Source: a virus
Length of the DNA stretch: 20,868 nt
IMG/VR virus record: IMGVR_UViG_3300043420_001458
Coordinates: 1-20,868 of that record
Strand: one strand, 5' to 3'
Positions 1 through 14,530 of this stretch are shown here, in pieces. The translations under genes were made by a program, and so were the position numbers. Under the pieces are notes generated by a model. That model saw only the letters and a list, made by a program, of their open reading frames with translations, had not been told where the DNA came from and searched no databases. Position 1 is the first letter of the stretch, and each line of letters starts with the position of its first letter.

Positions 1-1725
1 TACTATAATTTTCTTCGTTCTCATAAAACAGGACAAGAAATTCGTACAAATATTTGTATGATTTCAATGTTTAAAAACGAATCAAAAGGTATTCGTCGAA
101 TGCTTGAATCAGTTTGGAGACATATTGATTTTTATATTTTTCAAGACAATGGATCTACAGATGGAACTCCAGAAATTGTAGAAGAATTTTTTGCGGATAA
201 AAATATTCCAGGATTCATTTATAAAGTAGAGGAAGGATGGGTTGGATTCGGTTGGAATCGGGATCACCTACTTCAAACAACTCTTCAGAATGATCATGGT
301 TGTGATTGGATCATGAAGATGGATTGTGATGAATATTTAGAAGTTGATGATGATTTTGATTGGTCTTATTTCTACAATACAAACACTGAAAGTTTTCATG
401 TTGCTGCAGTGAATCCTGGTTGCATTTATTATCGTGCTTGGATTTGGAATGCAAAACTACCATGGCACTTTCAACATGATCCTGCTCATGAAATCATTTA
501 TCTAGAAGACAAAGGTGATAACTTTCAAAGAGTAAACCTTCCCCGTGGTTTAAGGATGATTGGAACTAATGATGGTGAAAGTTATAATGTAAAAACAAAG
601 TATATTTCAGATGCTTTAAAACTTGAAGAGAAAATGATTCGTGAAGAAACTATGCTTACAGATACTTATCATTTCTGGTACATTGCAAAATCATATCAAG
701 ATTGTTATCGAGGAGATTTTTATCCACTAGGAGAAGCACATTCCAAAGAATTCGCAAGGAGATTTATTTTTTATTTTGAAGAGTACTTGAAGTTTATGAA
801 TGCATCTGGTATTCATGAAATGTCTTATTTTTCTGCATTCTCTATTGGTCTTGGATATAAATTTCTTGGAGAAATTGATAAGGCAATTGAATGGTTCAAA
901 AAGTCTGAAAGATATTGTCAAGTAAGAAATGAACATATTGTTTATCTGGCACAAACTTATTCTGAACTTGGTCAGTATGAAAAAATGCTGGAGCAAACTT
1001 CTATTTTGGTTGATCCAAATAGAAAACTTCCCTTCCCAGATTATTATTTCTTGATTGATACAAATCTCTATCAAGATAGTGGTACATATCCACAAGAACT
1101 CCATAACTATGCTCTATCAAAAGTAAACGAAGGTCAAAAAACAATCAATTCATTCTCAGTCAATGTATCAACAAAACCAAGACTTTGGATTGTTGATGAC
1201 TTTTATGATAATCCGTATGCAGTCAGAGATTTTGCTCTTCAGCAAGAATTTGAGGAGAATCTTGATTATTATAAGGGTAATCGTTCAAAAGAGCAATACA
1301 TTGTTCCTGGTACAAAAGAAGCATTTGAAAAAATTATTGGTAGAAAAATTACTAATTGGACTGAAACTCATGGAATGTGCGGAAGATTTCAATATTGCAC
1401 TGCACAAGATGATCTTGTTTATCACTGTGATGGACAAACCTTAGCAGGAATGATTTACCTAACTCCTGATGCGCCTTTTTCATGCGGAACTTCTTTGTTT
1501 GCACATAAAAGAACTAGTCTAAGAAATGAAAATGATTTTGGAGATATTGATGTATTTGGTGAGACAGGTTTTTATGATCGCACCAAGTTTGAACTTGTAG
1601 ATACTGCAGGAAACGTTTTCAATCGTCTTGTTTTATTTGACGCTAAATGTATTCATTCAGCAAATGAGTACTTTGGAACTGACCTAACTAATAGCAGATT
1701 ATTCCACTTATTCTTCTTTGATTGA
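1..1725 (+). CDS. GT2 glycosyltransferase - TPR-like - 2OG/Fe(II) dioxygenase-like fusion (5' partial)
   Basis: The reading frame is open from base 1, and its first residues (NIC before the Met at 58) complete the first strand of a family 2 glycosyltransferase fold, so the true start is upstream of the window. Numbering from the Met at 58, the GT-A part shows DNGSTDGT at 30-37 and the DxD-like DCD at 89-91, which bind nucleotide sugar and metal in this family. Helical TPR-like segments follow around 260-320. The C-terminal part from about 375 resembles DUF6445-type proteins and carries a plausible iron/2-oxoglutarate set: H456, D458, H533 and R547. I infer a bifunctional enzyme that adds a sugar and hydroxylates or oxidises the same or a linked substrate. 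One base separates its stop from the next start. The GT2 call is secure; the dioxygenase call is good but rests on motifs. Confidence 0.85.
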   Translation, partial: YYNFLRSHKTGQEIRTNICMISMFKNESKGIRRMLESVWRHIDFYIFQDNGSTDGTPEIVEEFFADKNIPGFIYKVEEGWVGFGWNRDHLLQTTLQNDHGCDWIMKMDCDEYLEVDDDFDWSYFYNTNTESFHVAAVNPGCIYYRAWIWNAKLPWHFQHDPAHEIIYLEDKGDNFQRVNLPRGLRMIGTNDGESYNVKTKYISDALKLEEKMIREETMLTDTYHFWYIAKSYQDCYRGDFYPLGEAHSKEFARRFIFYFEEYLKFMNASGIHEMSYFSAFSIGLGYKFLGEIDKAIEWFKKSERYCQVRNEHIVYLAQTYSELGQYEKMLEQTSILVDPNRKLPFPDYYFLIDTNLYQDSGTYPQELHNYALSKVNEGQKTINSFSVNVSTKPRLWIVDDFYDNPYAVRDFALQQEFEENLDYYKGNRSKEQYIVPGTKEAFEKIIGRKITNWTETHGMCGRFQYCTAQDDLVYHCDGQTLAGMIYLTPDAPFSCGTSLFAHKRTSLRNENDFGDIDVFGETGFYDRTKFELVDTAGNVFNRLVLFDAKCIHSANEYFGTDLTNSRLFHLFFFD

Positions 1726-1726
1726 A

Positions 1727-2962
1727 ATGAAATTTAGTCTTATTACTCCTTCTCATCGTTATCAAACTTATTTTGATGAACTGTACTCAAGCATTGTAGC
1801 ACAAACATATTCAAATTGGGAATGGATTGTTTATCTTAATGGAGAATTTAAAAAAGATCAACTTTCCGAAGAAATTTTAAATGACGAACGAGTTAAAATT
1901 TTTGAAGTATATGATGGCAATACAAATATTGGATATGTAAAAAATAAAGCATTTTTTCTAGGCACAGGGGATATTTTAGTTGAAGTTGATCATGATGATA
2001 TTCTAACAACTGACTGTTTAGAAGAACTTGCAAAAGCATTTGAAGAAAATCCAGATTGTGGATTTGTTTATTCTAATAATGCGACATATCACATGGAAGA
2101 TAAGTTTATTCCTTATGGATCAGTATATGGATGGACTCATAAAGAATACGAGTGGAATGGAAAAAAACTTACCGCAATGAACTCTTTTGATCCATCAAGT
2201 CATTCAGTTTCTTATATTTGGTATGCACCTGATCATATTCGAGCATGGAGAAAAGAAGTATATAAAAAAATTGAGGGTCATAATGTAAATTTATCAATTT
2301 GCGATGATCATGAATTACTAATTCGCACTTATCTTGAAACTAAGTTTTATCATATTCAAAAAACTCTTTATATCTACAGAATTACTGGTGATAATAGTTG
2401 GTTGGAAAGAAATGAAGCGATTCAGATTAAAACAAAAGAACTTCACAATCAATATGCACAAGTTTTAGCAGAAAGAGATGCAGATTTAAAAGGTTTGATG
2501 AAGATTGATATTGGTGGTGGATTATTTCCAAGAGCAGGATATACAACAATTGACCAAGAAGATGCTGATATTATTTGTAATTTGGACGATGGTATACCAC
2601 TAGAAGACAATAGTGTTGGAGTAATCAATGCATCTCATGTAATTGAACACCTTAAGGATCCTATCAAAACAATGAGAGAAATTCATCGTGTTTTGGCACA
2701 TGGTGGTTGGGCATTTATAGAAGTTCCTTCAACTGATGGTAGAGGTGCTTGGCAAGATCCAACACATGTTTCTTATTGGAATCAAAATTCTTTTTGGTAT
2801 TACACTAAAAAATCTCATGCACAATTTATTCGTAATAAAGATATTAAGTTTTCTTGTTTAAGACTTGAAACTAACTGGTGGGAACATCATATCGCAGTTG
2901 TCAATACTCATCTTGTTGCAGTGAAGGATGGTGTAAGATATCCAGGACCTATTGAGATGTAA
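1727..2962 (+). CDS. GT2 glycosyltransferase - SAM methyltransferase fusion
   Basis: A two-domain enzyme of 411 residues. The N-terminal half is a family 2 glycosyltransferase, beginning MKFSLITPSHR with the DHDD metal/nucleotide motif at 88-91. The C-terminal half, from about 258, is a class I SAM-dependent methyltransferase: glycine-rich motif I (DIGGG, 261-265), the HVIEHL segment (304-309) typical of the methyltransferase-11 type, and a DPTHVSYWN segment (344-352). It presumably transfers a sugar and methylates a sugar or acceptor. A TTG at 1718 is in frame, but the ATG at 1727, one base after the previous stop, fits family starts better. Translation is probably coupled to the upstream fusion gene. 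What the methyl group is placed on is not visible. Confidence 0.85.
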   Translation: MKFSLITPSHRYQTYFDELYSSIVAQTYSNWEWIVYLNGEFKKDQLSEEILNDERVKIFEVYDGNTNIGYVKNKAFFLGTGDILVEVDHDDILTTDCLEELAKAFEENPDCGFVYSNNATYHMEDKFIPYGSVYGWTHKEYEWNGKKLTAMNSFDPSSHSVSYIWYAPDHIRAWRKEVYKKIEGHNVNLSICDDHELLIRTYLETKFYHIQKTLYIYRITGDNSWLERNEAIQIKTKELHNQYAQVLAERDADLKGLMKIDIGGGLFPRAGYTTIDQEDADIICNLDDGIPLEDNSVGVINASHVIEHLKDPIKTMREIHRVLAHGGWAFIEVPSTDGRGAWQDPTHVSYWNQNSFWYYTKKSHAQFIRNKDIKFSCLRLETNWWEHHIAVVNTHLVAVKDGVRYPGPIEM

Positions 2963-2963
2963 T

Positions 2964-2993
2964 TTGACATGATTAGTTGATTGTGTCTATAAT
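2964..2993 (+). promoter_or_regulatory. sigma70-type promoter, consensus -35 and -10
   Basis: TTGACA (2964-2969) and TATAAT (2988-2993) match consensus at every base, with an 18-base spacer. It begins two bases after the stop of the upstream gene. The -10 lies in TGTCTATAATT, which recurs in the promoter at 12840-12869. It would be read by the host RNA polymerase without phage factors and would drive the tail-adhesin block. Confidence 0.7.
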
Positions 2994-3025
2994 TTTCCTT
3001 GTCAAAGTTGAAAGTTGAATTAATT

Positions 3026-3033
3026 TATAAATA
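3026..3033 (+). promoter_or_regulatory. T4-type late promoter TATAAATA
   Basis: An exact T4 late promoter octamer, recognised in T4 by the gp55 sigma factor with gp33 and the gp45 clamp. It lies in an intergenic gap about 80 bases before a virion-type gene, which is where a late promoter is expected. The octamer alone is not rare in AT-rich DNA; location and downstream gene type support it. Predicted start of transcription is near 3039. Confidence 0.65.
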
Positions 3034-3063
3034 ATAACTGTAAAGCCGAGTGGAGACACGAAG

Positions 3064-3108
3064 ATGGTGAAGAGAAACCTTATTCATTTACAATGGGGAG
3101 GTGAATAA
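3064..3108 (+). CDS. possible 14-residue leader peptide
   Basis: An ATG at 3064, eight bases after a GGAG (3052-3055), opens a 14-codon frame (MVKRNLIHLQWGGE). Its TAA shares the A of the next gene's ATG (TAATG, 3106-3110). It lies between the late promoter and the first tail gene. The TAATG junction suggests termination-reinitiation, but the next gene has its own GGGGAGG site, so this may be chance. No function is assigned. Confidence 0.3.
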   Translation: MVKRNLIHLQWGGE

Positions 3109-3452
3109 TGGCAATTCAAATTTCAGGAACAACTGTCATTAATGATCAAAAAGAACTCTCAAGTGGATTAGCATCTGCTTATGATACTGTAACAGTATCA
3201 GCAACTGGAGGAACTATTACTAATAGAACTGTTTATTGTGTGACTGCTGCTGGACAAACTATTACTTTACCTGCATCACCATCTGCTGGCAATGAAGTTG
3301 TTATTATTAACGGTGGTAATATTACAAATACAGTAATAGCAAGAAATGGTCAAAATATTATGGGTCTTGCAGAAAATATGACTTTAGATAAAGCATATGC
3401 TGCAATGACATTTATTTTTACAGACGCAACAAGAGGTTGGAGGATCATCTAA
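3108..3452 (+). CDS. small tail-fibre-like virion protein
   Basis: A 114-residue protein rich in Thr, Ala, Gly and Asn with alternating beta-strand patterns such as TITNRTVYCVTAAGQTITLP and VVIINGGNITNTVIARNG. This style is common in repeat domains of cyanophage tail fibres and adhesins, where short strands ending in a turn stack along the fibre. It ends TRGWRII, a typical end for such a domain. It has a strong GGGGAGG ribosome site and its stop directly abuts the ATG of the glycine-rich adhesin. I infer that it is a chaperone-like or connecting piece of the same fibre tip, or a stand-alone fibre module. Late expression is expected from the octamer upstream. The virion assignment is by composition and context. 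Confidence 0.6.
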   Translation: MAIQISGTTVINDQKELSSGLASAYDTVTVSATGGTITNRTVYCVTAAGQTITLPASPSAGNEVVIINGGNITNTVIARNGQNIMGLAENMTLDKAYAAMTFIFTDATRGWRII

Positions 3453-4871
3453 ATGAGTTTATTAAGTCAATTTTTTCCATCTGGTGGTGGAGTAACTAAA
3501 ATAGACTTCCTTCTTATAGGAGGAGGAGGTGGTGGCGGCGCTTCTGGTGGATATCCAGGTTGTATGCAAGAGATAGGCCTTGGTGGTGGTGGCGGCGGCG
3601 GTCAAGTTGTTATTGGAGAAGATTATGAAACAACTCCAGGAATAACTTATTCAATTACAATTGGTGCCGGTGGTGCCGGTGGTGGATTTTATTTTCCACC
3701 ATCTTTTTTTGCAGCACCGCCGGTACCAACACCCTGCTATGCTATCAATAAATCTATGAAACGGGGAAGTGATGGTGGAGATACTTTTCTAGGATCTATA
3801 AGAGCTCTAGGCGGTGGTGGTGGTGGTTCAGGTTTTTCTTGTGTCCTATGTTGTGAAGAACATTCATTTAAAGGGAGGAATTATGGAACTGGTGGAGGTG
3901 CTGGGGCATGTAGTGATGCTAACGTTAATACAAGTTCACCCGATCAAGGGAATGCTATTGCAAATTATTCTATTGGACAAACTATCAAGTTAGGAACAGT
4001 CGGACAAAGAGTTGAAAAATCAGATTGTTGGGAAAGCATTTATGCATCAGTTTGTTGGTATAAAGGTGTTAGTGGTGGTGGTGGCAACGCATCGGGAGCA
4101 CAAAGTGGTGGTACTGGATATATTGAGTTGAAAACACCATTTGTAAATAGTATCAATTGCTGCTGTATATATCAGAATTTTACAAAAGTTTACGAATGTT
4201 CTTTTTCCTGCATTCAAACTTGGATACCAAACAAATGGTGTGGATATTTATCAGGTGGGGCTTCAGCAGTATCTGAGTCAGCAACCAAAAGAGCTTCTCA
4301 TCAATATAGTTATCATGGTGTTGATGGATACCTAACTAATATTGAAGGCGCTGAGTCCTATTATGGTGGTGGTGGTAGTGTAGCATGGTCCCTAATATAT
4401 TTTGATAATCTATATCATGGAGTTGCTATGGATCCTTCAAATCCATGTTGGCCTTATTTTAGCAATTATAACTGTTATGCATGTCCATATGGAGGACAAG
4501 GTGGTGGAGCTACTATTAAAGCAAATACTGTAAGACCAAGTAATCCATACTGGACAACTAGTACTTGTGGGGTTCCACTTGGTTACCCTTATTGTTGCTT
4601 ACTTAGTGGCAGAGTTTTATACAATGGTGAATCTGGTTTAGGTGGTGGTGGAGCAGCTCACTACATCCATGCTCAACCAAATACTGGACCTGTTTTCCCT
4701 GGTTATAGTCAATGTGCATATTGTGGAACTAATGGTGGGTCTGGAGTTGTTATAATTAGATATCCAACAAATTTTTCTGCTGCAACTGTAACTGGAAATA
4801 CACCAACAACACCACAATCGGGATATCATGTTTATAAGTGGACAAGTCCTGGTACTATAAAATTTAATTGA
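3453..4871 (+). CDS. glycine-rich, cysteine-rich tail fibre adhesin
   Basis: A 472-residue protein with long glycine runs near residues 23-29 and 44-50, more near 120 and shorter GGGG tracts later. The C-terminus has GSGVVIIRYP followed by a TPQSGYHVYKWTSPGTIKFN-like end, the usual close of glycine-rich phage tail proteins. Glycine-rich tips of this kind (compare the gp38 adhesins of T-even phages) form polyglycine helices that display variable host-recognition loops. About 22 cysteines, several clustered (CVLCC, CCC, CC), are unusual for a tail tip and could form disulphides or bind metal. Runs of GGT/GGC codons could slip by whole codons without a frameshift. It starts directly after the stop of the upstream fibre-like gene. 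Receptor binding is inferred; structural identity is fairly sure. Confidence 0.75.
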   Translation: MSLLSQFFPSGGGVTKIDFLLIGGGGGGGASGGYPGCMQEIGLGGGGGGGQVVIGEDYETTPGITYSITIGAGGAGGGFYFPPSFFAAPPVPTPCYAINKSMKRGSDGGDTFLGSIRALGGGGGGSGFSCVLCCEEHSFKGRNYGTGGGAGACSDANVNTSSPDQGNAIANYSIGQTIKLGTVGQRVEKSDCWESIYASVCWYKGVSGGGGNASGAQSGGTGYIELKTPFVNSINCCCIYQNFTKVYECSFSCIQTWIPNKWCGYLSGGASAVSESATKRASHQYSYHGVDGYLTNIEGAESYYGGGGSVAWSLIYFDNLYHGVAMDPSNPCWPYFSNYNCYACPYGGQGGGATIKANTVRPSNPYWTTSTCGVPLGYPYCCLLSGRVLYNGESGLGGGGAAHYIHAQPNTGPVFPGYSQCAYCGTNGGSGVVIIRYPTNFSAATVTGNTPTTPQSGYHVYKWTSPGTIKFN

Positions 4872-4890
4872 TATTAGGAGGTAAAATAAA

Positions 4891-5400
4891 ATGGCTCATT
4901 TTGCACAATTAGATGAAAATAATATTGTTATTAATGTGATTAAAGTAAATAATGATGATATTATTGATGAAAATGGAAATGAAAGTGAAGAACTTGGAAT
5001 TATTAGGTGTCAGTCTCATTTTCCAGATACAAGATGGATTCAGACCTCATATAATAATAATATGAGAGGTCAATATGCAGCGAGGGGAATGTATTATCAT
5101 GAAGATCATGATATTTTTACATATCCATCTCCATATCCTTCTTGGATTTTTAGTTTAGAAGAACTTCGCTGGAATCCACCTATTCCAGCACCAGAAGGAA
5201 CACTTCTAGATGAAGGACAGATATATGATTGGAATGAAAACGAACAAAAATGGATTATTATGGATATTCCTAATCCATTTTTAACAAATCAAGATGGATA
5301 TTCTAACTATGATTCAGAAAATTATGTTGTCCAATGGTCAGGATTTGAGTGGATATTAATTCCAAAAGAAGTACCTAATGTTGGAATAGCATCAACATAA
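4891..5400 (+). CDS. conserved cyanophage tail-region protein
   Basis: A 169-residue protein beginning MAHFAQLDENNIVINVIKV, with WIQTSYNN, a YPSPYPSW segment and repeated tryptophans. I recognise this as a family often found near tail fibre genes of cyanomyoviruses: a short beta-rich N-terminal domain, then a Pro/Trp-rich region repeating a W-x-PP-x-P-x-P pattern. Its role is not known to me; a virion or fibre-assembly function is inferred from position. The ribosome site AGGAGGT (4876-4882) is strong. The last 30 residues (YSNYDSENYVVQW and beyond) look like an added tail. A rho-independent terminator follows, so this is the last gene of the structural block. Confidence 0.65.
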   Translation: MAHFAQLDENNIVINVIKVNNDDIIDENGNESEELGIIRCQSHFPDTRWIQTSYNNNMRGQYAARGMYYHEDHDIFTYPSPYPSWIFSLEELRWNPPIPAPEGTLLDEGQIYDWNENEQKWIIMDIPNPFLTNQDGYSNYDSENYVVQWSGFEWILIPKEVPNVGIAST

Positions 5401-5417
5401 TTTTTGTGCTATAATTC

Positions 5418-5446
5418 AAATGGAGTGAAAAATCACTCCATTTTTT
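5418..5446 (+). terminator. rho-independent terminator
   Basis: An 11-base-pair perfect stem (AAATGGAGTGA with TCACTCCATTT), an AAAA loop and a run of six T. It closes the tail gene block and separates it from the dioxygenase/carbamoyltransferase block. Confidence 0.85.
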
Positions 5447-5454
5447 ACATCATA

Positions 5455-5460
5455 TATAAT
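5455..5460 (+). promoter_or_regulatory. possible -10 element after terminator
   Basis: TATAAT directly behind the terminator and 31 bases before the next start codon. No good -35 is seen at 16-18 bases upstream, so support is limited to the -10 match and its position. Confidence 0.25.
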
Positions 5461-5491
5461 ACATGAAAATAATTTATAGGAGTATTTGATT

Positions 5492-6115
5492 TTGGCAAAT
5501 CAAAGTATTTGGTTTTATACAAATATCCCAAGCGAAATTGTGGATATTATAGAAAAGGACTTACAAAAAAATAATATTGATAAAATTTTAGAAGAATCTA
5601 GAGTTGGAAATGGAAAATCTGATCATGATATCAGAAATGCAAAAAATGTTTGGATCCCAACATCTCATTGGATTGGTGGATTTCTTTGGTATTATGCGGA
5701 TAGAGCAAATAGAGAAAATTTTAAATATGATTTAACATGTGTTGATGGAGAAAATCTTCAATACACATTATATAAAGAAGGAGATCACTATACTTGGCAT
5801 ACAGACCAAGATTTAGCTACTTTTTATAAACCACAAAATTCTGGTGGAAGAGATCATGAAACTTTAGTAAATGATTTTATTATGGATAATACCGAAAATG
5901 TTAGAAAATTATCTTTCTCACTTCAATTATCAGAGGATGATTCATATGAAGGAGGACAATTTCAATTATTAGATGGTCTTAATTCATATATTGTTCCAAG
6001 ACAAAAAGGGACTATTGTATTTTTTGATTCAAGAACTCCTCATAGAGTAAGAAAAGTAACTAAGGGAGTTAGAAAAAGTATAGTTGGATGGATACTTGGT
6101 CCTCGTTGGAGATGA
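5492..6115 (+). CDS. 2-oxoglutarate/Fe(II) dioxygenase, PKHD/prolyl-4-hydroxylase type
   Basis: A double-stranded beta-helix dioxygenase of 207 residues. The iron ligands are H103 and D105 (WHTD) and H184 (TPHRV); R194 (VRKSIVGW) is placed to bind 2-oxoglutarate. The core LSFSLQLSEDDSYEGGQFQLL and the GTIVFFDS strand are typical of PKHD-type hydroxylases, which hydroxylate protein or small-molecule carbons using O2 and 2-oxoglutarate. No ATG is available: an in-frame stop lies at 5477, and the choices are TTG at 5486 or TTG at 5492. AGGAG at 5478-5482 gives nine bases to 5492 but only three to 5486, so I chose 5492. It heads the cassette after the terminator. The substrate is unknown; a sugar or a glycosylated protein is likely from context. 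Confidence 0.85.
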   Translation: MANQSIWFYTNIPSEIVDIIEKDLQKNNIDKILEESRVGNGKSDHDIRNAKNVWIPTSHWIGGFLWYYADRANRENFKYDLTCVDGENLQYTLYKEGDHYTWHTDQDLATFYKPQNSGGRDHETLVNDFIMDNTENVRKLSFSLQLSEDDSYEGGQFQLLDGLNSYIVPRQKGTIVFFDSRTPHRVRKVTKGVRKSIVGWILGPRWR

Positions 6116-6121
6116 TAAGTT

Positions 6122-6766
6122 ATGTCTATACAAACAACCTCAAAAACAAGTAATGAAAAATTTGAGAAAGATGGGTGCTTGTTGGTAAAAAATATTTGGA
6201 ATGCTAAAGATTTATTTTGTGAAGTTCCTGATTATAGAGGATTAATTAATTACCACGGTAAACTTAGTAAGTTTACTCATGTACCAGTAGAATCTCAAGT
6301 TAAAGGATCTTTGGCAAGATACCATTATCCACCATACAAATATTTTCATTCGCAAATTAGGAAAAAAATAGAAAAAATATTAGGAGAAGAATTATTCAAT
6401 ACTTATTATTATGATAGATTTTATTTTCCTGAACAAGAATTAGTAAAGCATACTGATAGACATTCTTGCGAAATTTCCATAACAATAAATGTGAGTACAA
6501 ATTTAAACTCTTTTTGGCCAATTTTTGTTGAATCTCCATCAGGTGAAAATCTTTCTTTTTCATTAAAACCTGGAGATGGATTAATATATAAGGGTTGCGA
6601 AAGACCACATTGGAGAAATAAAATGCCTTCAAGATATGGAAAAGTTCAAAAATTTATTAGGAAATTTAAAAATTTAGAAGATGATTCATATTATCATCAA
6701 GTATTTTTTCATTATGTGTTGGCAAATGGTCAGAGAAGTCACTATGCAAATGATGTAAAACATTAA
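6122..6766 (+). CDS. 2OG/Fe(II) dioxygenase-like protein
   Basis: A 214-residue protein, six bases after the preceding dioxygenase. The likely iron ligands are H110 and D112 (KHTDR) and H163 (RPHW), with the strand pattern CEISITINVSTN and LKPGDGLIYKG expected for the beta-helix core. The usual basic residue for 2-oxoglutarate is not obvious; the last core strand reads YHQVFFHYVLANG. Related proteins occur in cyanobacteria and their phages, often beside sugar genes. It is not closely similar to its neighbour, so this is not a simple tandem duplication. It probably acts on the same glycan or peptide substrate, but the substrate cannot be read from sequence. No strong ribosome site is present; translation may follow from the gene before. 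Confidence 0.75.
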   Translation: MSIQTTSKTSNEKFEKDGCLLVKNIWNAKDLFCEVPDYRGLINYHGKLSKFTHVPVESQVKGSLARYHYPPYKYFHSQIRKKIEKILGEELFNTYYYDRFYFPEQELVKHTDRHSCEISITINVSTNLNSFWPIFVESPSGENLSFSLKPGDGLIYKGCERPHWRNKMPSRYGKVQKFIRKFKNLEDDSYYHQVFFHYVLANGQRSHYANDVKH

Positions 6767-6789
6767 AAAAATATTAAAGGAGATTATTT

Positions 6790-8481
6790 ATGATTACAAT
6801 TGGTGTTTATGGTGCTTTTGATTGGAGAGCAGATAAATCATTTAATCAATATAATGAACAAACCTGGTGCCATGATTCTGGAGCGACTATTTTTGTTGAT
6901 GGAAATCATATTTGCAGCATTTCTGAAGAAAGACTGACTAGAAAAAAGTATGATGGTAATTACCCAATTAATTCTATTGATTACTGTTTAAAAGAAGCAA
7001 ATGTAACAGAAGATCAAGTAGATTTAATTTGTGTACCTAGTATGTGTGTACACATTTGGTATAAAAAATGGTATGAAAATAAAATTCATACCATTTTAAA
7101 GACAAAATTTCCAAATGCAGAGATTAAAATTGTTTCACATCATTTGAGTCATGCATGTGCTTCAATTTTTACATCAAATTTCAATGAAGGATCTTTTTTA
7201 ACTCTGGATGGTGCAGGATCTCTTCTTTTGGGATATGACTACGATCCAAAAATGGCAGAAACTAGTTCAATTGGATACTTTAATAAAAGTAAGAAGCAAA
7301 TTAGATTTTTCACTGGACCTTCTGGACTCACTGATTTTGGAACTTTTTATCACGCATATGCACACCAAATTTATTGTGAAAAAATTAAACAACATATTGA
7401 TGGGTATGATGAAAAGTATCGTGAAAGTTGGGATGGAAAAATAATGGGTCTTTCTGCATATGGATCTACGGCAGAATTTACAGATAAAGATAAAGAGTAT
7501 AAACTCTCTAAAGATCTTGCTCACGGAACATTTCCTTACGTTACATTTAATTTGAGTAATTCACCAAAATGGAATACATTTAAAAATCCTGATGAAAAAG
7601 CATATCTCCTCCAAAAAAACTTTGAGAGTGCTCTTTTAGAATATTTTATTGAGTTAAAAAATGAAGGTTATTTGGATGATCATGTTTGCCTTTCTGGCGG
7701 TTCTTTCTTAAATGTACTTGGAAATTCTGTTTTAAAACAATCAAATATTGTAAAAGATATTCATATTCCACCGTGCCCAAATGATACAGGACTTCATTTT
7801 GGAGCAGCATGTTATGGGGTATTTAAGGGAGATGAAGAAGTCAAAATGCCAGAAAATATTGCACTTCTTGGAAAAGAATATAGTGATGAAGAAATTGAAA
7901 AAGTATTAAAAGAATCTAATATTTCTTATGAGAAATATGAAAATTTTGATGAGGTGTGTGATTTAATTTCAATATATTTGACTGCCGATAAAATTATTGG
8001 TTGGTTCCAAGGAAGATCAGAATTTGGTCCTAGAGCATTAGGTTCTCGTTCATTATTGATGCATCCAGGTCCTAAAGAAAACAAGGACATTATGAATTAT
8101 CGTGTTAAGCATCGTGAATACTGGAGACCTTTTGCTGGTATAATTCTAGAGGAAAACTTAAATGATTACTTTGAAGAAGATTTCAATTCTCCCTACATGT
8201 TGTATTCTCTTACAGTCAAAAAAGAAAAAGAACCTAAAATCGGAGCAATTACTCACGAAGATAAAACTTGTCGAATTCAGACAGTAAATGCTAGAATTAA
8301 TCCGAAAATGACTCAACTTCTCCAGAAATTTGAAGAATATTCAGATGTTCCTGTTCTTCTAAATACATCATTCAATGACAATGGAGAACCTATTGTCGAA
8401 TCACCTCAGGATGCTATCAATTCATTTAAAAATATGGATATTGATTATCTTGTAATTGGAAACTTTATTGTTAGGAAGTAA
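6790..8481 (+). CDS. carbamoyltransferase, NodU/CmcH/TobZ family
   Basis: This full-length enzyme (563 residues) transfers a carbamoyl group from carbamoyl phosphate, through carbamoyl-AMP, to a hydroxyl of a sugar or other acceptor. The N-terminal Kae1-like domain has CHDSGA (27-32), ISEERLTR (44-51), the metal-binding HHLSHA (117-122) and LTLDGAG (138-143). It then has LSGGSFLNVLGN (301-312). The C-terminal carbamoyl-phosphate domain has FQGRSEFGPRALGSRS (406-421), REYWRPFAG (442-450) and LLNTSFNDNGEP (523-534). All signature segments are intact, so it should be active. Ribosome site AAAGGAG at 6776-6782. Its stop overlaps the next start (TAATG). In this cassette it most likely carbamoylates a sugar made by the adjacent transferases. 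Confidence 0.93.
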   Translation: MITIGVYGAFDWRADKSFNQYNEQTWCHDSGATIFVDGNHICSISEERLTRKKYDGNYPINSIDYCLKEANVTEDQVDLICVPSMCVHIWYKKWYENKIHTILKTKFPNAEIKIVSHHLSHACASIFTSNFNEGSFLTLDGAGSLLLGYDYDPKMAETSSIGYFNKSKKQIRFFTGPSGLTDFGTFYHAYAHQIYCEKIKQHIDGYDEKYRESWDGKIMGLSAYGSTAEFTDKDKEYKLSKDLAHGTFPYVTFNLSNSPKWNTFKNPDEKAYLLQKNFESALLEYFIELKNEGYLDDHVCLSGGSFLNVLGNSVLKQSNIVKDIHIPPCPNDTGLHFGAACYGVFKGDEEVKMPENIALLGKEYSDEEIEKVLKESNISYEKYENFDEVCDLISIYLTADKIIGWFQGRSEFGPRALGSRSLLMHPGPKENKDIMNYRVKHREYWRPFAGIILEENLNDYFEEDFNSPYMLYSLTVKKEKEPKIGAITHEDKTCRIQTVNARINPKMTQLLQKFEEYSDVPVLLNTSFNDNGEPIVESPQDAINSFKNMDIDYLVIGNFIVRK

Positions 8482-9467
8482 TGAAAACAATTATTAATGT
8501 TGATGGTGGATATGGTCGTATCCTTTGCGCAATTCCTGCTCTACTCAAATATGGAAAACTGCATCCAGATGAAGACTGGTATGTAATGATTCCTGGTTGG
8601 GATGTAGCAACTTGGGGAATTCCAGAACTTCAGAATAGAACATTTAACCCAGAAACAAAGGGTATGTTTGAGAACTACTATTGGGATGCTGATAAAGTTA
8701 TTGCACCAGAACCTTATAAACTTCCTAAGTTTTATAGGAATGAGATTTCTCTTCGTGAAGCATTTGATTCTATCATCAACGAAACAGAAGATCACTCAGA
8801 CCTTCCTGATATGATTTTTAAGTGCTCCATTGATGAAATTATTGCAGCAAAAAGTTGTCTTTCAAATATTCGTAAAGATAATATAAACAAAAAAATCATT
8901 GTTTTTCAACCTTTTGGAAGTACAATTGAAAATACTGAAATTGGAATGTATGACAAATCAATGAGATCTATTAATCATTATATGGTTGAAAAGATTGTCA
9001 ATGAATTGTCTAAAGATTATGTTTTAATCAATATGAATGCTCCAGTATGGGGACATCCTGATGTTATTAATATACAACCAGATCCTGGATTGAGAATTTG
9101 GGCAGCAATCATTCAGGAAGCAGATTATTTTATTGGTTGTGATAGTTGTGGACAACACATGGCAAGATGTGTTGGTACAGATGCTTCAATTGTAATTGCA
9201 GGAACTCATGAAATTAATATTTCTTATCCAGAAAAGTTCCATATTATTAAAAGGGAAGGTGCAAAATACTATCCAAATCCAATGAGAGTATCAATGATAA
9301 ATTCAATGCTTTCGGATAAACTCAACGAAGAAAGAAATTCTTTCTCTGATAATGAAATCAAAGAAGCAATCAAAGAAATTCGTAAGAGAATTGAAAAAAC
9401 AAGTAAAATTACTGGAGCAACAACAGTCAAAGCAATAGAAGTAAAAGAATCTAAAGGTTTTTCATGA
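8481..9467 (+). CDS. GT9/heptosyltransferase-like glycosyltransferase
   Basis: A 328-residue GT-B-fold candidate. The first strand and glycine loop (INVDGGYGRILCAIPALLK) match the N-terminus of heptosyltransferase-like proteins, which adds sugars to lipopolysaccharide-type acceptors. The C-terminal domain has FQPFGS (142-147) and then EADYFIGCDSCGQHMARCVG, the typical donor-site segment where GT9 proteins read D-S-G-P-x-H; here C223 and Q225 replace parts of it. The ATG overlaps the carbamoyltransferase stop, so the two are likely co-translated. The last 60 residues are charged and probably helical. The donor sugar is unknown. I am fairly sure of the fold and less so of the exact family. Confidence 0.75.
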   Translation: MKTIINVDGGYGRILCAIPALLKYGKLHPDEDWYVMIPGWDVATWGIPELQNRTFNPETKGMFENYYWDADKVIAPEPYKLPKFYRNEISLREAFDSIINETEDHSDLPDMIFKCSIDEIIAAKSCLSNIRKDNINKKIIVFQPFGSTIENTEIGMYDKSMRSINHYMVEKIVNELSKDYVLINMNAPVWGHPDVINIQPDPGLRIWAAIIQEADYFIGCDSCGQHMARCVGTDASIVIAGTHEINISYPEKFHIIKREGAKYYPNPMRVSMINSMLSDKLNEERNSFSDNEIKEAIKEIRKRIEKTSKITGATTVKAIEVKESKGFS

Positions 9468-9826
9468 TGCAGTGTCCAAGAGTTCCGATTTCAATTGGAG
9501 AATTGCTTGATAAAATCACAATCCTTCAAATCAAAGCAAAGAAAACAGATAATACTTTTGTACATAAAGAACTTAATGATTTAATTACAATTGCACAGGA
9601 ACTTAAGGTTTATAGAGAAGATTATCTAAATGATCTGAAAACTGTTAACGAAAAACTATGGGATATTGAAGATAAATTGAGAGAACTTGAAGATTTGTGG
9701 AAATTTGATGATGAATTTATTTACCTAGCAAGACAAGTTTATATTACAAATGACGAAAGAGCAAGAATAAAGAAACAAATTAATGACAAAACAAATTCAG
9801 AGTATTCTGAAATTAAATTATATTAA
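9464..9826 (+). CDS. DUF6165-like coiled-coil protein
   Basis: A 120-residue protein whose start VPISIGELLDKITILQIKA and conserved late segment DDEFIYLARQVYITNDERARIKKQIN match what I remember of DUF6165. That family is found next to glycosyltransferases in polysaccharide gene clusters; its function is not known. The middle is strongly heptad-like (YLNDLKTVNEKLWDIEDKL), so it may be a dimer or a scaffold for the enzymes around it. It overlaps the GT9-like gene by four bases (ATGA), with a second in-frame ATG three bases on. No catalytic motif is seen. Confidence 0.75.
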   Translation: MMQCPRVPISIGELLDKITILQIKAKKTDNTFVHKELNDLITIAQELKVYREDYLNDLKTVNEKLWDIEDKLRELEDLWKFDDEFIYLARQVYITNDERARIKKQINDKTNSEYSEIKLY

Positions 9827-9848
9827 TTAATGTATTGTAAGAAAATCA

Positions 9849-10748
9849 ATGATTCCAAAAATTATCCATCAATCAGCACCTAAAGATACTAACGTTTGGC
9901 ATCCATTATGGTTTGAGTGCCAAGAATCTTGGAAAAGAAATTTCCCAGAATCAGAATATCAATATATTATGTGGAATGATGATGATATTGACGAATTAGT
10001 GAAAAATAATTATCCAGAGCATTGGAACTATTTTAAAGATATCAGACCACATATTGTAAAAATTGACATATCAAGATTCTTTATTTTACATCATTATGGT
10101 GGAATATATGCAGATATGGATACCTACTGTTATGGTAATTTTTACACTAGAATAAAGTCTGAAAAAGTTTTACTCGTACAGTCATCATACTTGGCAGAGG
10201 AAAAATATCAAAATTCTTTGATGTGTTCAGAAAAAAATAATAGTTTTTTCATTGATTGTATAGAAGAAGCATTTAAAAGATCTAAAATATTTGGGAATTT
10301 TGATATTTTTGACAAAAACTTTTCCCCAGAGAAAAAAATACCAAGTATTATAAAGGTTATATCAGGTCCAATTTTATTAACTAAATTATTAAAAGATAGA
10401 AAATACAAAAATATAGTAAAATGTTTGCATTATGCAATTTATAATGCTAGACCAAAGGAATATTCAAACAAAATATATGTCAGACACATGTTAACTGGTC
10501 AATGGGGAAATGATACCATAGATTATCTTATAAAACAACACAAAATACTAGAATTTAATGCAAATGAACGCATAGAATTTTCAGAATTACGAAAAATAGA
10601 TTATAAACAATCTAAAGATATTGACATATCAAATTTTAATTTTTATAAAGATCTTTCTCTCGCAGACAAATTTTATTTGGAGATGAGGTTTGATTATGAT
10701 TCTGTGGATTTAGAAGAAATTATGAACCCAATACCAATAAAATATTAA
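9849..10748 (+). CDS. GT32-type glycosyltransferase (DxD sugar-binding region)
   Basis: A 299-residue enzyme with the classic start IPKIIHQSAP (2-11), W-rich middle, and the conserved block KIDISRFFILHHYGGIYADM running into DTYC, where D89-M-D91 is the metal/nucleotide-sugar DxD motif. These are hallmarks of the OCH1/mannosyltransferase-like GT32 family. The C-terminal region is longer and less conserved, and very AT-rich. It probably adds a hexose to a glycan made by the cassette; donor and acceptor are not visible. The next start follows after four bases, so it is likely co-expressed with the dioxygenase-like gene downstream. Confidence 0.85.
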   Translation: MIPKIIHQSAPKDTNVWHPLWFECQESWKRNFPESEYQYIMWNDDDIDELVKNNYPEHWNYFKDIRPHIVKIDISRFFILHHYGGIYADMDTYCYGNFYTRIKSEKVLLVQSSYLAEEKYQNSLMCSEKNNSFFIDCIEEAFKRSKIFGNFDIFDKNFSPEKKIPSIIKVISGPILLTKLLKDRKYKNIVKCLHYAIYNARPKEYSNKIYVRHMLTGQWGNDTIDYLIKQHKILEFNANERIEFSELRKIDYKQSKDIDISNFNFYKDLSLADKFYLEMRFDYDSVDLEEIMNPIPIKY

Positions 10749-10752
10749 TTTT

Positions 10753-11295
10753 ATGAAAATGAAAATTGTCAACCAAAAATTAAATATCTATAGCATAAAA
10801 AATTTTCATAAACCTCCATTGTTCAAGAAAAATAAACTGATTAAAATATGTTGGGAAAATTTAAAGTATAAACGTCAAGGATATAATTGGCCAATAATTG
10901 ATGAGAACCACTGGTTTTCATTACTTTATGATAAATTTTTCGATTTTTCAATGAAAAAATTTAATTTTACTCCTGATGAAAAATTGAGTAGACGATGTTG
11001 GTGCTATGGATCAACACAAACTAATTATAGTTCTTACTGGCACGATCATAAATTAACATCAACAATTAATTCAGTCTATTATCTAAGCATTCCATCAAAA
11101 ACATCTATTAGTTTTTTGGATGAACAAACCCAAATATTGTTTCCATACTTTCCTGAAGAAAATGAGTTGATAATTTTTCCAAATGATCTTAAGCATAAAC
11201 CAAATAATTTTTGTGGAAAAGGCAGTAGGATTTCTATAAATATGGAAATTATTGCTAAAGAATCTTCAGATCTCTTATTTAATAGAATCAAATAA
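10753..11295 (+). CDS. 2OG/Fe(II) dioxygenase-like protein (HxH type)
   Basis: A 180-residue protein resembling the 'putative 2OG-Fe(II) oxygenase' family common in cyanophages. The core reads SSYWHDHK, then STINSVYYLSIP, ELIIFPNDLKHKP and GSRISINMEI. Likely iron ligands are H97, H99 (or D98) and H148; R159 is placed for 2-oxoglutarate. The HxH in place of HxD is seen in this family. The N-terminal third is rich in Lys and aromatics and has no recognised domain. Base composition is lower in G+C than the transferases upstream. A second in-frame ATG lies six bases after the first. Substrate unknown. Confidence 0.7.
   Translation: MKMKIVNQKLNIYSIKNFHKPPLFKKNKLIKICWENLKYKRQGYNWPIIDENHWFSLLYDKFFDFSMKKFNFTPDEKLSRRCWCYGSTQTNYSSYWHDHKLTSTINSVYYLSIPSKTSISFLDEQTQILFPYFPEENELIIFPNDLKHKPNNFCGKGSRISINMEIIAKESSDLLFNRIK
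11235..11242 (+). promoter_or_regulatory. possible late promoter TATAAATA inside a gene
   Basis: An exact late octamer within the 3' end of the preceding dioxygenase-like gene, 70 bases before the small gene at 11312. In DNA this AT-rich several exact octamers are expected by chance, so support is weak. Confidence 0.2.
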
Positions 11296-11311
11296 TTCGT
11301 TATACATAATT

Positions 11312-11548
11312 ATGTTAGTAAATCAAATGAAATTTATGATACCAAATATAGAAAATATTCGACATGCAAAAGAATGGGCAAACATTTCTGAAGAAACCTG
11401 TAAAGAATACTGTTCTTTGTATAATATGGTAAGAAGAGAACTTGGTGGTTTATCTAATTTTGAAACCATCAGACATATTACAAATTATGTAATAGATTCT
11501 ACAAATAAAAGATTCAATATCATACATTCAGAATATGATATAAAATAA
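11312..11548 (+). CDS. small hypothetical protein
   Basis: A 78-residue protein I do not recognise. It is helical in appearance with conserved-looking residues (HAKEWANISEETCKEYCSLY, then RRELGGLSNFETIRHITNYV). The frame is open further upstream, but that would overlap the previous gene, so the first ATG after that stop is used. ATGs at 11327 and 11336 are also possible. There is no clear ribosome site. Amino-acid use looks like a real protein (balanced, with an amphipathic pattern), unlike the shadow frames nearby. It lies between two dioxygenase-like genes and may be part of the same unit. Confidence 0.55.
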   Translation: MLVNQMKFMIPNIENIRHAKEWANISEETCKEYCSLYNMVRRELGGLSNFETIRHITNYVIDSTNKRFNIIHSEYDIK

Positions 11549-11603
11549 AATTATTATTCCTTTTATTTCGTATTTTTCTATATTTTTTAAAATCAAAGAT
11601 GCC

Positions 11604-12236
11604 ATGAAAAAATTATTTAAAGGTCTTCCAGTTTATAAAGTTTCTAATTTTTACAAAAAAGAGACTGATAAAGAATTTTCCAACAATTATGATTATTTTA
11701 TTGAGCAATACAAAAATGGTTTAAATATTAAAGAATCTGGTTACTTTCCTAAAGATAATTATTCTTTTCCTATAGAAAATAATGATTATACAAAAAAATT
11801 GATGGATAAAATTTTTACTTTTTGTAAGAAAAAGTTCAAATTCTCAAATAGTCCTTATGTTAGCAAAACTCTAAATGTCTATGCATCAAATGCATACAAA
11901 TCAGAGAATATTTTGCATAATCACTATACACAAGAGCATGGTAAAATTTGTTCAATATATTACTTTAATGCTCCAGAAGATACTGGAGGAAAAATTATGT
12001 TTAAACTTGCATTTGATGACCCAAAAGTATTTTATTATAAACCAAAAAAATATGATTTATTGATTTTTCCAGATGTAATTTTACACTTTGAAGAAGATAT
12101 GAATGAGTCTGAAGAATATAAAATTTCTCTAAATTATGATATATCAATGTCTGAAGACTCTTTTGATATTTTTATTGAAAATTTTGAAAATAATCTATTA
12201 AAAAGAATATTGCGGAAGTTTTCTTTTCGAAAATAA
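11604..12236 (+). CDS. divergent 2OG/Fe(II) dioxygenase-like protein
   Basis: A 210-residue protein with the same core order as the gene at 10753: LHNHYTQEHGKICSIYYFNA, then GGKIMF, YDLLIFPDVILHF and YKISLNYDIS. The likely iron ligands are H105, H107 and H161. At the 2-oxoglutarate position a lysine (K173) replaces the usual arginine, which some members of the fold accept. The protein is highly charged and the gene is among the most AT-rich in the window (about 20-30% G+C over sampled lines). The C-terminus ends in a basic segment (LKRILRKFSFRK). Active or degenerate cannot be decided from sequence. A terminator follows, ending the cassette. Confidence 0.6.
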   Translation: MKKLFKGLPVYKVSNFYKKETDKEFSNNYDYFIEQYKNGLNIKESGYFPKDNYSFPIENNDYTKKLMDKIFTFCKKKFKFSNSPYVSKTLNVYASNAYKSENILHNHYTQEHGKICSIYYFNAPEDTGGKIMFKLAFDDPKVFYYKPKKYDLLIFPDVILHFEEDMNESEEYKISLNYDISMSEDSFDIFIENFENNLLKRILRKFSFRK

Positions 12237-12437: not shown

Positions 12438-12854
12438 ATGTTTTATCTTGAAATCACTGGCCACAAGGCACCTAGAAGGCGCTGTAAAGACGCTGTAGAA
12501 TGGTTTGTGAGGAATCATATGCCTAGGCATAAATTGGACATCATAGTGCACCATAGAGGTCTTCTGAGAGAAGGTGTGTATGGGTGGTGCACTGTTCAAG
12601 ATTGTGATTGGAAACCAAGATGCTTTCTTTTGGAGATTCATAATCGCCTTGATTCAAACAATTACCTTAATACACTTTTTCATGAGTTAGTTCATGTACA
12701 TCAACATGTTCGTGGAGATCTTCGTGATAAGGGTTCTCTAAGACTCTGGAAGGGTATTGATTGTAGCGAACTTGATTATGAAGAACTTCCATGGGAACTA
12801 GAAGCAGAAGCAATGGAATCTTCACTTCTTCATGAGTACTTGACAAGACCATAA
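12438..12854 (+). CDS. SprT-like zinc metallopeptidase
   Basis: A 138-residue protein with an HExxH zinc motif, FHELVHVHQHVRGDL, with H82, E83 and H86. E122 or E124 in the later ELEAEAMESSL helix would be the third ligand. Size and layout fit small SprT/minigluzincin-like peptidases; homologues are frequent in T4-like cyanophages. SprT/Spartan proteins cut proteins crosslinked to DNA; whether this one does is unknown. The final codons contain the -35 of the next promoter, and the -10 follows the stop, so the gene downstream has its own transcription start. No clear ribosome site precedes the ATG. Confidence 0.75.
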   Translation: MFYLEITGHKAPRRRCKDAVEWFVRNHMPRHKLDIIVHHRGLLREGVYGWCTVQDCDWKPRCFLLEIHNRLDSNNYLNTLFHELVHVHQHVRGDLRDKGSLRLWKGIDCSELDYEELPWELEAEAMESSLLHEYLTRP

Positions 12855-12869
12855 GAATCTGTCTATAAT
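12840..12869 (+). promoter_or_regulatory. sigma70-type promoter, consensus -35 and -10
   Basis: TTGACA (12840-12845), 18-base spacer, TATAAT (12864-12869). It has the same hexamers, spacer length and TGTCTATAATT surround as the promoter at 2964, and again sits at the end of the upstream gene. It would drive the 532-residue protein from about 12876, leaving a leader of about 55 bases. Confidence 0.75.
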
Positions 12870-12931: not shown

Positions 12932-14530
12932 ATGGCAGCACCAAACACAAAGGAGTTCCTTGCATGTTTTGCCTTTGCGTATTTCATGAAGAATCAGAAC
13001 TATAAGAATAATCCACAACATAAAGAAGATTGGATTGATATCTTTAATGACTTTAAAGTTGGTGATGTAAAACCAATCTATCAAGAGTATCTTGAACCAA
13101 ACTTTAAGTATTCAAATTTAAAATCAAGATATTCGTATATAACAGGTAGTCCAGATAATCACTTGTATGCGATTTATAATCAGATGGTTACTTTGTTTGA
13201 TTCAAACTTATTGAATACAACTAAAAAGTACAGAATATACGGACAAGATAGTAGTTTTGTAAAAACTGTAAAGGATGATTGTTTAAAGAGATTGCATGAA
13301 ATATTCTCTGAATCATTCTCTAAAGATGCAAAGGCACAGGATTTAACACCTGCAGATTTTTATATTGTTGACTCTAATGAGGCAGATAATATAAAAAAAG
13401 AATTTAAAAAAGAAATCATAAGTCCCAAGAATGATACAACATTACTTTTAAATTACCAGAAGGATAAGAGTAAGACTTACGAACAACTTATTGTTAAGTA
13501 TTTTAAGAGTAAGGAACTATTTCCTATTTCACATAAGATGCCAGATGGAAAAGATCCTTCAACATCAATTAAATTGGGTGGAAATATATCAAAAATTGGT
13601 AATGTGAATAAAAAAAATATTGATCCTTATTCACAATTAATGGTCGCATTGTATGCAAAAAGTCCAAGTGAAGTTGAAAAGTTAATTGATAAGATTATTG
13701 ACATTAGATATGAAAAGTGGGATATTCGTGAGAATATTAGCTCTACTACTTGGGCATTAAATTTTGATTTTAATTATAAAAAGTTAGATTCTCATTTTGA
13801 TGATGCTGAATTTTTATTAAAACCAATTCCAAGTGGTGGATCTGGTAGTTTTAATGGTAAGTTCTTCATTGTAAAAGGACAAAAAGCACAAACACCATGG
13901 GTTGCTGGAATGGCACCAAGATCATTAGAACCATTCTTAAGATCTTATTCTGGATATAATAACATTATGAGATTACTTGGAAAGAAAAGAGCACAAGTAT
14001 TTGATGATGTAATTTACAAAGAGTTATTAAGGACAAAACGAACAAAGCAAGCAGCAGATCTTGAAATGAATAGAATTCGTTCAAAGATACCAGAATATAG
14101 AAAATGTATGGTATTATTGATGAGTCCTAAGTTTCATACTTTTAATGAACTTTCGAAAAAACTTTCACCATTCTTTATTAAAATTGGACAATTGGGTGGA
14201 TTTGAAGAGTTTCAAAAAGAGATGATTAAAAAGATTCGATCTGAAGGTGGATTCTCAACTGACTTAGGAGCAATTAATTCGACCCGTTTATCTGAACATT
14301 ATATTTCTCTACAAATGTCTTATTTCCTATTTGTAGGTGGTCAATCCTTCAGACAATTCTTAAAAAAATCAATTTTCTTTACGATCTTTGGTGCAATTAC
14401 GAAGAGAGGTTTTACAAAAATTTCTGGTAGTGGTGCGACTAATTTAGTGAAAAGAAAGATACAAACTGGTAAGATGCTCAAAGAAGTTGAAGTTTCATTT
14501 ACTGCTGCACCTCATTTAATTCTGCTATAG
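12932..14530 (+). CDS. large protein of unknown function
   Basis: A 532-residue protein I do not recognise by name. It is mostly soluble and Lys-rich. Segments that look conserved are TPADFYIVD (139-147), YEQLIVKYFKSKELFPISHKMP (183-204) followed by TSIKLGGN (211-218), a glycine-rich PIPSGGSGSFNGKFFIVKGQ stretch near 310, and a hydrophobic C-terminal part (SYFLFVGGQSFRQFLKKSIFF). The pairing of an Asp-ending strand with a later I-S-x-K strand recalls PD-(D/E)XK-like nuclease cores in some phage proteins, but this is a guess. It has its own strong promoter at 12840 and a UUCG-loop terminator after it, so it is a single-gene unit between a peptidase and a helicase. AGGA at 12912 is too far off to be a good ribosome site. 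Confidence 0.8.
   Translation: MAAPNTKEFLACFAFAYFMKNQNYKNNPQHKEDWIDIFNDFKVGDVKPIYQEYLEPNFKYSNLKSRYSYITGSPDNHLYAIYNQMVTLFDSNLLNTTKKYRIYGQDSSFVKTVKDDCLKRLHEIFSESFSKDAKAQDLTPADFYIVDSNEADNIKKEFKKEIISPKNDTTLLLNYQKDKSKTYEQLIVKYFKSKELFPISHKMPDGKDPSTSIKLGGNISKIGNVNKKNIDPYSQLMVALYAKSPSEVEKLIDKIIDIRYEKWDIRENISSTTWALNFDFNYKKLDSHFDDAEFLLKPIPSGGSGSFNGKFFIVKGQKAQTPWVAGMAPRSLEPFLRSYSGYNNIMRLLGKKRAQVFDDVIYKELLRTKRTKQAADLEMNRIRSKIPEYRKCMVLLMSPKFHTFNELSKKLSPFFIKIGQLGGFEEFQKEMIKKIRSEGGFSTDLGAINSTRLSEHYISLQMSYFLFVGGQSFRQFLKKSIFFTIFGAITKRGFTKISGSGATNLVKRKIQTGKMLKEVEVSFTAAPHLILL

Follow-up and report, generated by a model that had tools for sequence, protein, structure and literature searches.

A virus sequence of 20,868 bases from IMG/VR (record IMGVR_UViG_3300043420_001458; this whole stretch is called the window hereafter) carries at positions 6122 to 6766 a gene of the family phrog_2954 that bears the label 'ferrochelatase' and is designated gene G here (gene letters A to N refer to window 1-12236, with all genes on the plus strand). 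According to its predicted structure, gene G codes for a 2-oxoglutarate (2OG) dioxygenase and not for a ferrochelatase, and this is the strongest result of the analysis. With respect to the surrounding region, the best explanation is that G and its partner gene F form a fixed dioxygenase pair, the stable heart of an island, and that the stretch, composed of separately mobile modules, is where a marine T4-like phage not yet in culture keeps its tail-fibre or host-recognition genes. Both in gene content, which was checked by Pfam and PHROG scans of the window proteins, and in its closest relatives, the window agrees with marine T4-like phages: its UvsW-like helicase shares 62% identity with Synechococcus phage S-SRM01 and the carbamoyltransferase H 50% with Marine virus AG-345-L05 (Kyanoviridae). 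VrlC and the neck gene gp14 are both missing from the 20.9-kb fragment.

The G protein has no match in Pfam, and a sequence search of the PDB with the G profile likewise gave no meaningful match. The AlphaFold model computed from 38 sequences (the alignments used for structure prediction were built from the window and IMG/VR loci) reaches a mean predicted local distance difference test score (pLDDT) of 95 and displays the double-stranded beta-helix (DSBH) fold of the 2OG dioxygenases. A Foldseek search with this model returned 519 matches at E <= 0.001, and the 50 listed are all 2OG enzymes headed by the prolyl-4-hydroxylase (P4H) of Pseudomonas putida, with VIA Z values between 13.4 and 15.2 for these 50 (15.2 for 6n1f, about 14 for PHD2, and 14.4 for the P4H of P. 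putida). In addition, the metal-ligand motif H110-x-D112...H163 is invariant in the 38 sequences, and R165 and H197 are conserved, too. In turn, the ferrochelatase profile PF00762 matches none of 40 members of the G family, and 14 phage genomes in which G is present contain no match over the cut-off, whereas the profile does match the cellular controls. On these grounds, and given the predicted 2OG fold, the identification of G as a ferrochelatase was rejected.

A ferrochelatase next to an oxygenase gene might be thought to supply heme iron to its neighbour; however, 2OG oxygenases use non-heme iron. That explanation, which corresponds to the current annotation, has as its sole support a label inherited via PHROG_2954 and GenBank, and it can hardly be credited any longer. 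The label has been carried into the interpretation of adjacent 2OG oxygenases in two studies (PMC9599517, PMC11561400). The authors of the S-SCSM1 genome assigned to pfam05721 that part of ORF248 in which the G domain lies (PMC9602691), so that the oxygenase nature of G was partly seen, yet left unconnected to the 'ferrochelatase' label; in ten marine phages, PF05721 (PhyH) gave no match over the cut-off. Two further labels, those of phrog_274 and phrog_1644, likewise seem to have been given to proteins of the 2OG type: in S-RIM44 (L158), gp159, termed 'DNA endonuclease V' (phrog_274), matches PF13640 at 5e-7, and gp161, termed 'minor coat protein' (phrog_1644), has a weak DUF6445 match at 1e-3. 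Of note, S-SM1 (L157) has at 1843-8096 a run of dioxygenase-type genes with two tandem copies of G beside a poly-Gly adhesin.

Gene F (5492 to 6115, with a TTG start, 5486 being possible as well) codes for a 2OG-Fe(II) hydroxylase similar to the P4H and PKHD proteins. It matches PF13640 over the cut-off (E = 1e-14) and, over most of its length, the prolyl 4- and PKHD hydroxylases in the PDB (E 1e-15 to 1e-12); of its ligand residues (HxD...H...R), H105 and H186 are invariant and D107 and R196 at least 90% conserved. In all 65 distinct loci compared, F lies at most two genes upstream of G, where it has to be kept in mind that the loci come from related phages, so that counts across them are not independent. 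F and G are even fused in one open frame in three phages (S-SCSM1 ORF248, S-SCSM2R_301 and ACG-2014f). That phage 'ferrochelatases' always come with an adjacent 2OG oxygenase had already been noted (PMC9599517). Across genes F to I, the ratio of non-synonymous to synonymous substitution rates (dN/dS) lies between 0.1 and 0.35, indicating purifying selection. Three contigs (L040, L043 and L134) each harbour two successive F-G pairs, which suggests that the pair duplicates as a unit.

Upstream of this pair lies an adhesin unit comprising genes C, D and E. Gene C (3108 to 3452; phrog_31104) codes for a small tail-fibre-like protein with weak matches to tail-fibre PHROGs, and genes of this type recur 5' of Gly-rich genes in relatives. 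Gene D (3453 to 4871) encodes a glycine-rich adhesin (PF21722) having 22 Cys in 472 amino acids, which is unusual for a tail protein assembled in the cytoplasm, and the small protein encoded by gene E (4891 to 5400; phrog_7759) between the adhesin and F is a possible fibre chaperone. Right after gene B there is a perfect sigma70-type promoter (2964 to 2993; TTGACA-N18-TATAAT, 12/12), followed by a T4-type late promoter, TATAAATA, at 3026 to 3033, about 80 nt 5' of gene C. Cyanophage genomes have previously been searched for the T4 late promoter motif TATAAAT (PMC3037559). Over the whole window the number of late-promoter motifs is not above chance, and the motif is informative only through its placement upstream of the fibre gene C across loci: TATAAATA is present in 6 of 16 unique upstream regions of C-type genes as compared to none in shuffled sequences, with a similar placement in L002, L019 and L119 (contig L112 has the same sequence as the window here).

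An intrinsic terminator (5418 to 5443; -14.3 kcal/mol, z -4.8) follows E and closes the adhesin unit, and comparable hairpins were found at the E-F junction in only a few relatives, 6 of 74 upstream regions having one when the window itself is counted. It is immediately succeeded by the sigma70-type promoter of F (5444 to 5473), which scores 10/12 here and is conserved in relatives: at least 10/12 positions agree in 68% of 74 F-G pairs versus 3% in shuffles, and the distance from the -10 element to the start codon is 22-31 nt in most cases. Where F homologues occur without G, no enrichment of sigma70 promoters was seen. Since the promoters differ and a terminator separates E from F, the adhesin genes and the dioxygenase genes are probably separate transcription units with different timing. 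Therefore, the adhesin genes do not sit in the middle of one cassette, as the initial annotation of this stretch had proposed, but form a transcription-unit-like block with its own late promoter and terminator. A second perfect 12/12 sigma70 promoter is found at 12840-12869, 5' of gene P (12932-14530, 532 amino acids), for which neither Pfam nor PHROG gave a meaningful match and the fetched loci contained no relative.

The association of F-G with adhesin genes extends well beyond the window. The first large gene upstream of the pair is glycine-rich in 36 of 44 loci, in contrast to 8 of 53 for the first large gene downstream, although a P-value for this contrast should not be read literally because the loci are related. 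A poly-Gly adhesin also adjoins the F-G cluster in S-SM1, P-RSM4 and Bellamy, in two pelagiphages, HTVC023P and HTVC033P, and in two pelagimyophages, Mosig and HTVC008M, with HTVC008M showing the arrangement on the opposite strand. Phages of the HTVC023P type are podoviral (PMC9599517).

At the other side of the adhesin unit, genes A (1 to 1725) and B (1718 to 2962) form a two-gene cassette. Gene A, composed of a glycosyltransferase family 2 (GT2) domain, tetratricopeptide repeats (TPR) and a 2OG-type DUF6445 domain, is cut off at its 5' end by the window edge, but is complete in contig L112, which matches window 1-4835 at 100% and extends 1,292 bases further upstream. There it codes for 943 amino acids in the order methyltransferase-GT2-GT2-TPR-2OG, the added N-terminal parts being a methyltransferase (PF13578) and a second GT2. 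Gene B combines GT2 with an S-adenosylmethionine (SAM) methyltransferase, and the GT2 domains of both proteins are supported by Pfam scans. The dioxygenase-like C-terminus ascribed to the gene ending at 1725 was identified as DUF6445 by Pfam; H93-x-D95 and R184 are invariant and H170 is 90% conserved, the profile-profile support for a relationship to the 2OG families is weak (35-49%), and a PDB sequence search with the DUF6445 profile gave no meaningful match. The structure prediction for full-length gene A reached a pLDDT of 50, and this model was not used. In other contigs the A-B cassette recurs at 78-86% DNA identity amid unrelated neighbour genes, with varying N-terminal domains on A, and a dN/dS of about 0.1 in its core (gene A) indicates strong purifying selection. 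The gene A homologue at L119:2776-6576 codes for 1,266 amino acids with two GT2 domains and DUF6445, N-terminal modules being swapped onto the conserved GT2-TPR-2OG core.

The collagen lysyl hydroxylase/glycosyltransferase LH3 and the mimivirus protein L230 unite a glycosyltransferase and a 2OG hydroxylase in a single polypeptide. Gene A, which joins GT2 and the putative 2OG domain DUF6445 in one chain, may resemble them, and the likeness would be an analogy in the way of working that applies to gene A only. However, its GT2 is not of the LH3 glycosyltransferase type, DUF6445 is not the lysyl hydroxylase domain, and the adhesin D beside gene A is without a collagen repeat. A match to LH3 was sought with the gene A profile, and none was found.

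Downstream of G, gene H (6790 to 8481) codes for an O-carbamoyltransferase of the NodU/TobZ type with both Carbam_trans domains, PF02543 and PF16861 (8e-66), and a match to TobZ in the PDB at 4e-60. Gene J (9464 to 9826) is a DUF6165 gene (8e-10); the carbamoyltransferase and DUF6165 as well as the SAM methyltransferase had been named in the initial annotation, and all three are present. Of the four glycosyltransferase domains from three families proposed at the same time, GT2 in A and B and GT32 in gene K (9849 to 10748; PF04488) hold, while the assignment of gene I (8481 to 9467; phrog_8954) to the GT9/heptosyltransferases is weak, its sole basis being a match to TIGR02201 at E 3e-4, far below the cut-off, with no Pfam match and no meaningful match in a PDB sequence search with its profile. 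Gene L (10753 to 11295), a 2OG-FeII_Oxy_5 gene, barely exceeds the cut-off of PF13759 (28.3 vs 27 bits), ORF M (11252 to 11548) codes for 98 amino acids, and gene N (11604 to 12236) is 2OG-FeII_Oxy_5-like and sub-threshold (21 bits; PHROG_81 3e-8). The PF13759 family profile itself matches 3bvc (E 2e-16), 2rg4 (5e-15) and F (96.8%). No relatives of N were found in the viral-contig search. L and N belong to one family, being 28% identical and sharing HxH...H ligands as opposed to HxD...H in F, G and DUF6445, so that the five dioxygenases are not all mutually divergent as had been assumed.

Taken together, window 1-12236 holds five 2OG/Fe(II)-type domains, as had been proposed, one of them in DUF6445 and one sub-threshold. 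However, the view that so many oxidative steps are seldom brought together in known phage sugar modules is mistaken where marine T4-like phages are concerned. In stretches of 12,236 bases, S-SCSM1 has seven 2OG-type domains, S-SSM7 and HTVC008M six each, P-RSM4 five and five other phages three to four, and the entire S-SCSM1 genome contains 24 2OG genes (PMC9602691). An exceptional density of 2OG domains in the window was accordingly rejected.

By comparing gene neighbourhoods among the related phages it is evident that the stretch is a mosaic, comprising the A-B cassette, the adhesin unit with its late promoter, F-G with a promoter of its own, a carbamoyltransferase-GT9-DUF6165 block and a variable tail. 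Of 45 loci, only three have a carbamoyltransferase gene at most three genes downstream of F-G, and the other 42 have none there. Only F-G-H-I-J is conserved as a block, its order being kept in six other contigs (L001, L002, L006, L019, L032 and L134), although in L019 an ORF of 82 amino acids separates H from I and L134 carries F-G in duplicate. Downstream of J there is GT32 in L019 and a sulfotransferase together with a 2OG gene in L001, whereas L002 and L006 have no such genes there. A-B and F-G also travel separately, and K-N gives way to other genes or to none. Because the parts recombine independently in relatives, a single pathway making one hydroxylated, methylated and carbamoylated sugar chain, as originally envisaged, is not supported and was rejected.

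What, then, might the pair act upon? We tentatively favour, at somewhat less than an even chance, a role of F and G as the two components of a hydroxylase whose substrate is the adhesin or the glycan on it. Made from its own sigma70-type promoter, the enzyme, possibly a complex of F and G, would be present before the late adhesin and would hydroxylate adhesin side chains or a glycan carried on the adhesin; the glycan might then be built or capped, in this subgroup, by the GT9-like and GT32 proteins, the carbamoyltransferase and the GT2 fusion proteins A and B, in that presumed order of hydroxylation before glycan assembly. At least F and G among the dioxygenases bear the greatest resemblance to peptidyl hydroxylases, so that a protein is no less likely to be the substrate than a sugar. 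The original suggestion of a link to decoration of the virion or host surface stays plausible. Several points weigh against an action on the adhesin. The DSBH fold does not separate protein from sugar substrates, and the relatedness of the loci deprives the counts of their independence. In ACG-2014f no adhesin adjoins the fused G-F, nor does one in S-SCSM2R, where the fusion precedes three glycosyltransferases; in S-RIM44, G belongs to a 2OG array that includes halogenases, and the closest Gly_rich_2 match lies more than 7 kb off; and the co-occurrence of PF21722 with G across genomes is no more than a trend (10 of 14 genomes with G vs 3 of 9 without). Adhesin D contains no Gly-X-Y repeat, and collagen-like repeats of this kind, found upstream in 7 of 43 F-G loci, were rejected as a general substrate signal. 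Finally, the early- or middle-type promoter of F-G, which is not the adhesin's late one, suits host-directed roles at least equally well.

The main rival, which ranks close behind and is itself a real if doubtful possibility, assumes that the enzymes modify the surface polysaccharide of the host (O-antigen or capsule) early in infection, whereby the receptor would be altered and superinfection blocked, and the adhesin neighbourhood would simply reflect a hotspot of host-recognition genes. The sigma70-type promoter of F, the position of the S-SCSM2R fusion directly before the three glycosyltransferases, and a GT9/heptosyltransferase-like protein, GT32 and TobZ-type carbamoyltransferase that fit the tailoring of lipopolysaccharide (LPS) are all in favour of such a role, and it has been proposed for glycosyltransferases of the same island and of cyanophage clusters (PMC7029224, PMC7824862). 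However, F resembles protein hydroxylases, no flippase or polymerase match was found among the window proteins scanned, and the adjacency to poly-Gly adhesins holds in non-syntenic lineages. It is rather improbable that the island makes a hydroxylated and carbamoylated small molecule derived from amino acids or sugars, i.e., a secondary metabolite (PMC7824862): similar sets with halogenases and carbamoyltransferases do exist in S-SSM6a (PMC7824862), and 2OG genes adjoin tryptophan halogenases in S-RIM44 and HTVC008M, but no halogenase, HAD phosphatase or assembly-line gene was matched in the window scans, and the block is tied to adhesin genes. Less probable still is a consumption of 2-oxoglutarate that tunes host nitrogen metabolism, or a repair or modification of nucleic acids, as has been suggested for the 2OG genes of cyanophages (PMC3037559). 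The Foldseek matches of G do include AlkB structures, and PF13532 weakly matches 5 of 40 relatives; the sequence matches of F, however, are P4H/PKHD proteins, and fixed pairing, fusion and adhesin adjacency would not be expected of bulk 2OG sinks.

Among known systems, the host recognition cluster of pelagimyophages and cyanomyophages, which is placed between VrlC and the neck gene gp14, is similar in that tail-fibre genes and glycosyltransferases are intermingled in a hypervariable island, again in T4-like marine phages (PMC7029224); in its available part, that account stresses GT8 and LPS genes, and the F-G pair, the carbamoyltransferase block and the GT-2OG fusions do not figure there. Cyanophage clusters with carbamoyltransferase, 2OG and methyltransferase genes, and separate glycosyltransferase clusters, have already been described (PMC7824862). 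The sugar/amino-acid modification cluster of the jumbo cyanophage S-SSM6a likewise unites carbamoyltransferases, several 2OG oxygenases and methyltransferases (PMC7824862), but here the genes follow tail-adhesin genes, and, unlike in S-SSM6a, no halogenase or HAD phosphatase match was found among the scanned proteins of the window, the contig being a fragment. S-SCSM1 has seven dioxygenase domains in 8.7 kb next to tail-fibre genes and a UvsW-like helicase, including the G-F fusion ORF248 (PMC9602691), yet, in contrast to the window, this stretch is without an annotated carbamoyltransferase or glycosyltransferase. Enzyme patchworks beside fibre genes are common in marine T4-like phages, and the island, whose enzymes probably serve the hydroxylation and decoration of a protein or sugar, belongs with the known ones (PMC7029224, PMC7824862).

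The analysis is most useful in giving G a new identity and in providing a short list of cultured phages with F-G beside a Gly-rich adhesin for substrate work, namely S-SM2, Bellamy, Mosig EXVC030M, HTVC008M and HTVC033P. The new identity removes a 'viral ferrochelatase' that was taken as an auxiliary metabolic gene in two recent studies (PMC9599517, PMC11561400). Marine phages have a strongly enlarged complement of 2OG oxygenases, and the F-G result points to where their role should be looked for. A general scheme in which marine phages hydroxylate their poly-Gly adhesins post-translationally, and some lineages also glycosylate and carbamoylate them, by means of GT-2OG fusions and of F-G as a dedicated two-component enzyme of the prolyl-hydroxylase type, is unlikely in this breadth; it would be a parallel in phages to the modification of collagen and would adjust the binding to the host. 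If the adhesin is the substrate, however, mass spectrometry of virions from already cultured phages would reveal the modification.

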